A stretch of DNA of 64,000 nt from assembly GCF_001425025.1 (NCBI RefSeq), contig NZ_LMDE01000009.1, positions 201,357 to 265,356 on the forward strand, read 5' to 3'. Source of the DNA: Nocardioides sp. Root122 (GTDB taxonomy: Bacteria > Actinomycetota > Actinomycetes > Propionibacteriales > Nocardioidaceae). This document shows positions 3,940 to 59,877 of the stretch, piece by piece. A program made the translations under genes and the position numbers. The notes beneath the pieces are model-generated. The model was not told the DNA's origin. It worked only from the letters and a program-made list of their open reading frames with translations, and did no database searches. Position 1 is the stretch's first letter. Each line of letters starts with the position of its first letter.

Positions 3940-4043
3940 GCCCGCCGGGGCCCACCCGGACGCGATTCCGCGCTGCACACCACTGCCAAGTAGGGTGTGC
4001 GGGGTCCGGCCGACGAGCGTCGGCCGAAAGGAAAGGTCTCACC

Positions 4044-58540: not shown

Positions 58541-58655
58541 GGTAGTCCCCTACGTTCTGCACCGAGACGCGGGGTAGTCCCCTACGTTCTGCACCGAGAC
58601 GCGGGGTAGTCCCCTACGTTCTGCACCGAGACGCGGGGTAGTCCCCTACGTTCTG
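58541..58655. repeat. Direct array of a 32-bp repeat (three full copies and one partial)
   Basis: Copies start at 58541, 58573, 58605 and 58637 with an exact 32-bp period; the last is cut after the 19-bp core GGTAGTCCCCTACGTTCTG. Full units are identical. The core holds a small inverted repeat, GTAG-TCCC-CTAC. No unique spacers separate copies. The same core occurs twice in reverse orientation at 59814-59832 and 59846-59864. Confidence 0.92.
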
Positions 58656-58658
58656 GAC

Positions 58659-58745
58659 GGACCAGAGAGCGTCCACAGCGGCGCTTCCGCGCCCGTGGAC
58701 GCCACGTATGTGGAGAGCGGGCGGCACGACGCGCTCTCTGAGTCC
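58659..58745. other. Foldable region just before the nuclease-like gene
   Basis: Arms 58659-58671 (GGACCAGAGAGCG) and 58732-58745 pair over 13 bp with one bulged A. Inside are two further stems: GTCCAC/GTGGAC (58671-58676 with 58695-58700) and CCAC-GTAT-GTGG (58702-58713). An alternative small hairpin TCTGG-ACGGA-CCAGA (58652-58666) competes with the outer stem. It ends 11 nt before the ATG, so as RNA it could control translation; as DNA it could extrude as a branched structure. Confidence 0.5.
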
Positions 58746-58756
58746 AGCCTGCGTGG

Positions 58757-59809
58757 ATGGACAGAGACCGGACGCATGCGCTCCCCACCCGCCCGGGGCT
58801 GGTCTGGCCCGTACGCCGCGACCCGACAGGTCGCCGCGGTCCGAAAGGGCGGCAGACGCGCGACGGTTCGTGGCGTCGTACGAGCCGGGGGTTGTACGTC
58901 CCCGCCCATGTCGAGCCGACCGTGGACCAGCGCATCGTGGAAGCCGGCGCGGTGCTCCCGGCGTACGGCGGCGTGACCGGCTGGGCCGCGCTGGCGTGGT
59001 CCGGCGGGACGTGGTTCCACGGTCGCGGTCCGGACGGCACCCCGGTGCCCGTTCCTCTGGCGATCGGGAGCTCGCGCATCCGCCCACAGAGCGGGATCCA
59101 GGTCACGTCGGAGACGCTCGGCATGGGCGACCTCGAGGTCGTCGACGGCCTCGCGGTCACGTCGCTCCTCTGGGCGCTCGCCTGGGAGCTGCGCCACGCC
59201 TCCGACGCACGCCGGGCCGTGGCGATCGCCGACATGGCGGCGTACTCCGACCTGGTGTCGCGCGCCGAGCTCGAGCGGTGGGCGGCTGCGATGCTGCCGC
59301 AGACGGGTGTCGACAAGGTGCGCGCCGCGGTCGAGCACATGGACGAGAACTCGTGGTCGTGGCAGGAGACCGCATTGCGGCTGGTGTGGGTGCTGGACGC
59401 CGGCCTCGACCGGCCCTTGTGCAACGCGGCGATCTTCGACAGGTTCGGGCAGCACCTGGCGACCTGTGACCTCCTGGACGTGGAGACGGGGCTCGCCATC
59501 GAGTACAACGGCCATGTCCATGACGGGCGGCCCCGTGCCGACCTGGACCGGCAGCGCACCACGTTGCTCGAGGCGCACGGCATCACCATGATCACGGTCG
59601 TCGAGGCCAACATGCAGGACCGCGGCGCCCTGGCCGAGATGCTGTACGACGCCCGCGAAGAGGCGCGTCGCGTCGGGCCTTCCGTCCGACCGTGGACCCT
59701 CGACCAGCCGTCGTGGTGGGTTCCGACCGAGACGGTGGCCGACCGCCGCGCACTCTCCACCCAGCAGCGCGCGCGACTCCTGGCGCACCGCACGGGCGAC
59801 GCGGCCTGA
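58757..59809 (+). CDS. PD-(D/E)XK nuclease-fold-like protein (AbiEi/DUF559-like) within a repeat-bracketed unit
   Basis: A 350-residue protein I recognise only loosely. The N-terminal part (about 30-70: WRRTSRGLYVPAHV) resembles the small winged domain found at the front of AbiEi/DUF559-type proteins. The C-terminal part (about 245-300: LLDVETGLAIEYNGHVHD, then DLDRQRTTLLEAHGITMITV) resembles Vsr/DUF559 nuclease folds, with Glu in IEYNG, a His, and a D-x2-R pattern. No transposase motif is seen. There is no Shine-Dalgarno; a foldable leader precedes the ATG. Inverted copies of a 23-bp sequence lie on either side (58637-58659 and 59810-59832). Confidence 0.7.
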   Translation: MDRDRTHALPTRPGLVWPVRRDPTGRRGPKGRQTRDGSWRRTSRGLYVPAHVEPTVDQRIVEAGAVLPAYGGVTGWAALAWSGGTWFHGRGPDGTPVPVPLAIGSSRIRPQSGIQVTSETLGMGDLEVVDGLAVTSLLWALAWELRHASDARRAVAIADMAAYSDLVSRAELERWAAAMLPQTGVDKVRAAVEHMDENSWSWQETALRLVWVLDAGLDRPLCNAAIFDRFGQHLATCDLLDVETGLAIEYNGHVHDGRPRADLDRQRTTLLEAHGITMITVVEANMQDRGALAEMLYDAREEARRVGPSVRPWTLDQPSWWVPTETVADRRALSTQQRARLLAHRTGDAA

Positions 59810-59864
59810 CGTCCAGAACGTAGGGGACTACCCGGCGTCGGCGTTCAGAACGTAGGGGACTACC
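59810..59864. repeat. Two inverted copies of the repeat core downstream of the nuclease-like gene
   Basis: The reverse complement of the 19-bp core lies at 59814-59832 and 59846-59864. The first copy matches the last upstream copy over 23 bp (59810-59832 against 58637-59 at 58637-58659), starting at the base after the stop codon. Together with the upstream array this forms terminal inverted repeats around 58637-59832. Confidence 0.9.
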
Positions 59865-59877
59865 CGGGAGGGCGGGG

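Follow-up and report, generated by a model that had tools for sequence, protein, structure and literature searches.

REP and REPIN sequences are inverted doublets of a short half-site that lie in intergenic DNA and often carry GTAG at their outer end, according to passages in three papers (PMC3116915, PMC3733652, PMC8266576). The RAYT is presented in these passages as a single-copy gene that is flanked by its own repeat and has a largely vertical phylogeny, and several distinct gene/repeat pairs are possible in one genome (PMC3116915, PMC3733652, PMC8266576). GTAG repeats are named for Proteobacteria, Cyanobacteria, Chloroflexi and the PVC group in passages of one of these papers (PMC3733652), the main text of which contains neither Nocardioides, Streptomyces, Mycobacterium or Frankia nor any word beginning with actinobacter-. 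Antitoxins of the AbiEi type are described in a passage of another paper as binding inverted repeats at their own promoters (PMC7319586). Genes of the kind reported here, flanked by their own dispersed palindromes, were not described among the matches listed from open-licence full texts.

We analyzed a window of 64,000 nucleotides from Nocardioides sp. Root122 (contig NZ_LMDE01000009.1), in which a sequence-only reading had proposed a nuclease-like gene bracketed by inverted arrays of a short repeat, acting like terminal inverted repeats, as a possible mobile or repeat-dispersing unit. The direct array before the gene was found as claimed, with three full and one partial 32-bp units, and the two inverted core copies after the gene were found as well. 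The innermost copies are an inverted match abutting the stop codon, as had been stated; their length is 24 bp and not the 23 bp given. The features are listed in window coordinates:

58541 to 58572, + strand: 32-bp repeat unit 1, with the core GTAGTCCCCTACGTTCTG at 58542-58559 (repeat search)
58573 to 58604, + strand: 32-bp repeat unit 2 (repeat search)
58605 to 58636, + strand: 32-bp repeat unit 3 (repeat search)
58637 to 58659, + strand: partial fourth unit, the innermost upstream copy, with the core at 58638-58655
58757 to 59809, + strand: nuclease-like gene, 350 aa (ORF list, profile matches, homologue alignment)
59810 to 59833, - strand: innermost downstream inverted copy, exact reverse complement of 58636-58659
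59842 to 59865, - strand: second downstream inverted copy (repeat search)

Exact copies of GTAGTCCCCTACGTTCTG start at 58542, 58574, 58606 and 58638 on the + strand and at 59814 and 59846 on the - strand, with a 32-bp period upstream of the gene and 32 bp between the two downstream copies. At up to three mismatches the window contains six matches, compared to 0.02 expected from shuffles. The stop codon TGA occupies 59807-59809, and the downstream inverted copy begins at the very next base. The neighbours of the gene are presumably a polyprenyl synthase gene and rarD, the names that the first reading took from the sequence.

A genome-wide count showed that the core is not confined to this locus, since 50 matches are present in the genome at up to two mismatches, 35 of them exact, and none in the reversed control. 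Fifteen stretches around core matches outside the window were taken for inspection; 14 of them are core clusters, and one (L049) is a lone site with two mismatches. Gene positions were assigned with a crude codon-composition gene caller, allowing an overlap of 25 bp, which placed the 15 clusters found in the 14 stretches in intergenic DNA, between 11 co-directional, 3 convergent and 1 divergent gene pairs; four of the 15 run 3-20 bp into a called gene end. An inverted pair is present in every cluster except that of L036 (the partner in L045 was counted at four mismatches). In L036 (G000:C1, 3963-4160) a tRNA-Gly gene at 3963-4038 has a core 8 bp downstream, beyond which the tRNA 3' end is repeated and the degenerate core CTGGTCCCCTGCGTTCTG follows; this arrangement is a duplicated tRNA end carrying its repeat. 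The core was absent at up to one mismatch from 57 relatives sampled. An exact core scan of the genome_contigs collection returned nine stretches; eight belong to Nocardioides hwasunensis and the ninth is a single site in a Chitinophaga MAG, and no exact core was found in viral contigs.

Judged from its sequence, the protein looks like an AbiEi-like N-terminus followed by a DUF559-like domain of the PD-(D/E)XK type. Both domain assignments rest on weak profile matches and motifs, because the AlphaFold prediction (two sequences) has a mean pLDDT of 36, and a profile search of solved structures yielded no solved relative and one chance-level match. We take the nuclease-like domain to be linked to Vsr and PD-(D/E)XK. 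In the N-terminal part, a PADLOC AbiEi model matches the window protein weakly (E 1.3e-4); one such model matches 33 of 52 subfamily members, and the best E-value among the AbiEi models is 3.7e-7. The C-terminal part resembles DUF559, DUF2726 and MTES_1575, in all cases below the curated cut-offs. For DUF559 the score is 14.6 bits against a cut-off of 20.6. The DUF559/Vsr-type fold suggested earlier is a putative one, to which conserved residues, the motif and weak profile similarity point. The 52 subfamily members likewise lie below the Pfam cut-offs or are unmatched, with weak best E-values. NCBIfam had no match to the window protein; it gave two stray matches below cut-off among the 52 members and one DUF559 match below cut-off among nine distant members. 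Four of these nine (L148, L153, L154, L155) pass the Pfam DUF559 cut-off, and L148 alone is above the cut-off for AbiEi_1.

An alignment of 71 homologues, from which L124 was left out due to an internal stop in the reading, showed that E197, W200, E204, W211, N223, F227, G231, D238, Y250, H255 and D264 are invariant. Four of these, E204, D238, H255 and D264, are thus present in 71 of 71 sequences, and E249 in 59; the C-terminal motif is D...(E)-Y-x-G-x-x-H...D. The conserved acidic residues probably form the active site. In nine homologue pairs dN/dS is 0.13-0.30, showing that the gene is under purifying selection.

The protein has no Y1/HUH transposase match, in agreement with the earlier statement that it carries no RAYT motif. 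PF01797 (Y1/HUH) was found neither in the window protein nor in its genome; the same search matched in 5 of 14 control genomes. With PF01797 matched in one of the 215 genomes of the genus and absent from 214, a RAYT as the disperser was rejected for the genus, and with it a REPIN moved by a RAYT. The sole Y1_Tnp match is L128 (G160:C78:12861-13172), located in an assembly that is 86% complete. The structural features of REPINs are present, namely an inverted pair of short conserved half-sites, an extragenic position and a less conserved spacer.

Homologues of the gene were detected in at least 189 of the 215 genomes; up to nine candidates were scored per genome, and the homologue counts are therefore lower bounds. 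Two genomes in which the genus search detected no homologue (G094, G156) contain distant members by profile. We examined 72 loci: three from the window's own genome, 29 best matches, 20 from genomes with element pairs and 20 taken at intervals down the matches listed. The 350 bp on each side were compared for a common word at the 68 loci with enough flank, and such a word was found at 65, 63 and 57 of them for k=12, 14 and 16, compared to 17.7%, 3.8% and 0.9% in 3000 random layouts drawn from the examined loci. In the interval-sampled subset the numbers are 19/19, 19/19 and 18/19 usable loci. When distal windows were compared at these loci, 10 of 67 had a common 12-mer. Flanks of different loci have a common 12-mer in 919 of 4556 pairings, since families and the end motif recur. 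Two of the three loci missed at k=12 (L089, L095) nonetheless have G[AG]TAGTC half-sites on both sides, and L087 has no flank repeats. The question raised in the sequence-only reading, whether the repeats flank homologues of the protein, can thus be answered: the same layout occurs over the genus, in most cases with a different repeat sequence.

The usual flank element is an imperfect palindrome of 61-64 bp with the ends G[AG]TAGTC...GACTA[CT]C, one copy upstream and one downstream of the gene. Among 94 paired elements in homologue flanks, 93 are 61-64 bp and 69 are 63 bp long (44-74 bp were allowed). Other ends, such as GGATACCC and CGTCGTACCGGAC, are found in a similar layout at about a dozen loci. 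A gapless alignment of 25 elements of the family common to G018, G036 and G167 revealed the half-site GRTAGTCCGNCACA-N5-GTCG; the centre of 16 shows little conservation. The arms of these elements pair in 90% of the cells, with a covariation of 0.149 compared to 0.092 after shuffling, and three of five pairing measures, including covariation, beat all 500 shuffles, the other two being reached by 351 and 141 of the 500; these pairing and covariation values are inflated because the copies are related. These data agree with a hairpin as well as with a double strand bound by protein. At L118, L121, L105, L032 and in the window, the simple pair is replaced by three to five tandem half-sites about 30-33 bp apart, on one side of the gene or on both. 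A stretch of about 530 bp (L202:1390-1921, G085:C1) contains five elements; two of these recur 390 bp further on, which looks like a tandem duplication of the stretch.

The median distance is 123 bp between the end of the upstream element and the start of the aligned region, and 14 bp between the stop and the beginning of the downstream element, a placement that would also suit regulation: the protein would be an AbiEi-like autoregulator, the flanking elements operators or transcription boundaries, and the scattered copies a regulon or recruited terminators. Such a role would have a precedent in the AbiEi-type antitoxins that bind inverted repeats at their own promoters (in the passage cited, PMC7319586); it leaves the downstream copy unexplained, and with 11 tandem, 3 convergent and 1 divergent among the 15 core clusters, divergent promoters are not the rule. 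The direct core spacings in the window's family lie near 22-23, 31-33 and 43, as might fit binding along one helix face. Helical phasing is suggestive only: R is 0.85 at 10.5 bp for the direct spacings (13 distinct values) and 0.56 for the inverted ones, but tandem copies are non-independent, and the 25 values together are fitted best by a period of 9.5 bp, slightly ahead of 10.5 bp. Since a regulon also poorly explains the change of families between species and the gain and loss of sites (see below), we regard regulation as a rather unlikely explanation.

The gene itself looks mostly vertically inherited, and the scattered part is the repeat, not the gene. Eight of nine homologue pairs with at least 80% identity share at least one neighbour, six of them both, and the ninth (L071/L078) lies at contig ends. 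Searches of the plasmid, phage and viral collections yielded no relatives of the gene, and carriage of the gene by a phage, plasmid or virus was dropped on these grounds. The best other matches in the window's genome are 46%, 45% and 28% identical, so there is no recent duplicate. An insertion sequence with terminal inverted repeats was rejected as well, with no near-identical copies (46%, 45%) and no duplication at the few sites examined. These data bear on a selfish unit, in which the gene and its flanking elements would hop together, the outer elements forming the ends. Its element-gene-element layout is what such a unit would have, and some similar genes are without common neighbours (L075/L083, 76%; L119/L123, 73%), but the shared neighbours of the closest pairs, the lack of a recent duplicate and the lack of plasmid or phage relatives make it very improbable. 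For the proposal made from the sequence, this means that a REP-like repeat with dispersed copies, tied to a non-RAYT gene of the DUF559/Vsr type, is upheld, whereas gene and repeats moving together as one element is not supported, given the common neighbours and the missing plasmid, phage and viral relatives.

Different genes are accompanied by different repeats. Two paralogues of the window gene (L032 and L033, 46% and 45% identical) are flanked by GGTAGTCCACCGGGAA and GGTAGTTAGGGACGTT, respectively, and one degenerate pattern for both repeats has 33 matches in the genome compared to two in the control. GGTAGTCCACCGGGAA recurs exactly at six places away from the L032 gene, and GGTAGTTAGGGACGTT with its variants forms 63-64 bp pairs at four places away from the L033 gene; the window gene and its two close paralogues have three different repeat families, each of which is also present elsewhere in the genome. 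A fourth, distant relative (28%; L034, G000:C14:157434-161201) has its own palindrome on both sides (CGCGCACGTGCGGCGGTT / AACCGCCGCACGTGC). The inner element sequence differs between most lineages. The families are not strictly private, since CCCTGACGAAAAGCACC is common to L077, L103, L115, L116 and L124.

Dispersed elements were compared with gene flanks using 35 generically found elements from eight genomes, leaving out G128, the flank of which (L137) is without such half-sites. Altogether, 48 of 70 dispersed half-sites match the gene flank of their own genome best or tied among 60 flanks, and 58 of 70 do so if G018, G036 and G167, which have a common family, are taken as one. Dispersed families without a matching gene among the loci examined are the second one of G172, that of G076, part of that of G085 and that of G128. 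In G172, two elements about 1.1 kb apart led to a homologue (E 6e-96) at a position not listed before. Elements with a distance of about 1.1-1.3 kb were predicted to frame a homologue, which was right in L188 and wrong in contig 24 of G018, where the close pair frames an oxidoreductase-like ORF.

The generic pattern TAGTCCN{16,46}GGACTAYC was searched in the 215 genomes together with a reversed control and matched in 71 of them. Low counts mean little, because the reversed control also matches in many genomes; the window's genome, with 3 forward and 5 reverse matches compared to 4 and 1 in the control, has no excess. Some genomes reach 8 to 26 forward matches where the control gives 0 to 2, and many homologue-bearing genomes have few or no pairs. 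Three or more forward pairs are present in 29 genomes, all of which carry a homologue, and in none of the 26 genomes that are without one at the sensitivity of the genus homologue search (Fisher p 0.018); the reversed control reaches three forward pairs in seven genomes. This association argues against the elements being miniature transposons of some other transposase with the nuclease gene as a passenger or preferred neighbour. Being short palindromes with fixed ends, the elements do resemble miniature inverted-repeat elements, and the transposase search covered PF01797 alone. Nevertheless, one gene family is flanked in nearly all loci examined, three different families surround three paralogues of a single genome, and RAYTs are nearly absent from the genus, which renders another transposase improbable.

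Matching sites were then compared between relatives. In N. hwasunensis (G101, NZ_JACXYY010000002.1) the orthologue lies between the same neighbours as the window gene and has four direct and four inverted core copies at up to three mismatches, with different spacers; this relative with the gene at the same locus is therefore not one without repeats, the case that would have spoken against the initial proposal. The window protein is 68% identical to this orthologue and the neighbours are 87% and 83% identical, showing that the nuclease-like protein changes faster than its neighbours. Five of the eight N. hwasunensis core stretches (L052, L054, L056, L057, L058) are at sites that are also occupied in the window's genome. 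The element of L053 is missing at the matching site of the window's genome (L045), where the short similar stretch GGTGGTTCCC is a possible remnant, and L051 and L055 matched no stretch among those compared from that genome.

Many element sites are common to G167, G036 and G018, for example three between L190 and L191. Three elements (L192:2283, L194:3109 and L194:14356) have an empty matching site in a relative, the gap corresponding to L194:14356 being filled by other sequence, and a fourth presence/absence comparison in this group was too diverged to call. Two of the three come after a TGA resembling the end of the upstream gene (frame unchecked). The inserts consist of a 62-bp element and extra bases alongside, with no clear target duplication at the few sites examined. 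The comparison with empty sites in relatives that had been proposed thus showed that some elements are absent at matching sites, although the sites are not clean. Because of the unclean inserts, the lack of a clear target duplication and the possible remnant at L053/L045, loss is as possible as gain.

Within the class as a whole, the own genus included, the family profile detects mostly distant members; it matches in 129 of 197 genomes and in 72 of the 90 genera sampled. Outside the genus, 17 loci had enough flank, and a common word was found at 14, 11 and 8 of them for k=12, 14 and 16, for which the random rates of the genus are only a guide, since flank windows of 400 and 450 bp were used. 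The distant members L034 and L137 from within the genus have common flank words at k=12, 14 and 16; L138, L139 and L148, also distant members, have none. The repeat of L149 is present at up to two mismatches eight times each in G412 and G283, once in G238 and not at all in five other genomes of the same genus, with totals of 18, 21 and 2 to 12 at three mismatches, and is located on both sides of the homologues in G412 (C1:142321-143115) and G283 (C1:3408195-3409028). The repeat of L147 has 47, 38, 57 and 67 matches in G308, G276, G355 and G373 and 15, 2 and 5 in G293, G344 and G416, with 0 or 1 in the controls; its copies often form 72-bp pairs, and it is found on both sides of a homologue in G373 (C47:192371-193195) and beside the homologue of G355.

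We consider it probable that these loci follow the RAYT/REPIN logic with a different enzyme, the cognate target of each gene being its own half-site family. The gene would encode a nuclease of the PD-(D/E)XK type whose AbiEi-like N-terminal part is probably DNA-binding, and this protein would bind the short inverted half-sites of its own family, as AbiEi antitoxins do at their own promoters. Direct recognition of the half-sites is plausible because AbiEi proteins are described, in the passage cited, as binding inverted repeats at promoters (PMC7319586). In the commonest form, two half-sites would make up an element of about 63 bp that borders the gene at either end and has more copies between other genes; the nuclease activity would drive copying or insertion of the elements, and gene and repeat would evolve together like RAYTs and REPINs. 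The association of gene and repeat and the dispersal of the repeats are observed; we infer recognition, cutting and mobilisation of the elements by the protein and, with these, the step from recognition to dispersal. A wider proposal is that a non-HUH nuclease family in Actinomycetes has independently become the keeper and disperser of palindromic repeats, each gene lineage owning, recognising and spreading its family, in a second invention of the REPIN/RAYT way with a PD-(D/E)XK enzyme; for this we see the balance as even. If true, it would provide a substrate and a role for an unnamed protein family that is very widespread (72 of the 90 genera sampled, mostly distant members), explain a good part of the actinobacterial palindromic repeats and add an independent case for how REP-like repeats spread and persist. 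Every locus brings a gene and its half-sites together, so that specificity is directly testable by pair swapping in vitro.

In comparison with known systems, the AbiEi antitoxins (type IV AbiE) share a weak N-terminal similarity and inverted repeats near the gene; they differ in that the proteins reported here have a nuclease-like C-terminal part and repeats that are located on both sides and scattered. With the DUF559, REase_MTES_1575 and Vsr-like nucleases, the C-terminal motif is common and four distant members pass the DUF559 cut-off, whereas the 52 subfamily members are below the Pfam cut-offs or unmatched. Closest in organisation are REP/REPIN sequences with their RAYTs ('REPtrons'), which likewise have inverted half-site doublets, a gene flanked by its own dispersed repeat, several pairs per genome and a largely vertically inherited gene. 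Unlike these, the loci described here combine a non-HUH protein with elements of about 63 bp on both sides of the gene. As the enzyme test for this nearest known kind, the RAYT, failed, we place them in a categorically new kind; on a stricter view, they could be a new variant of REP systems.
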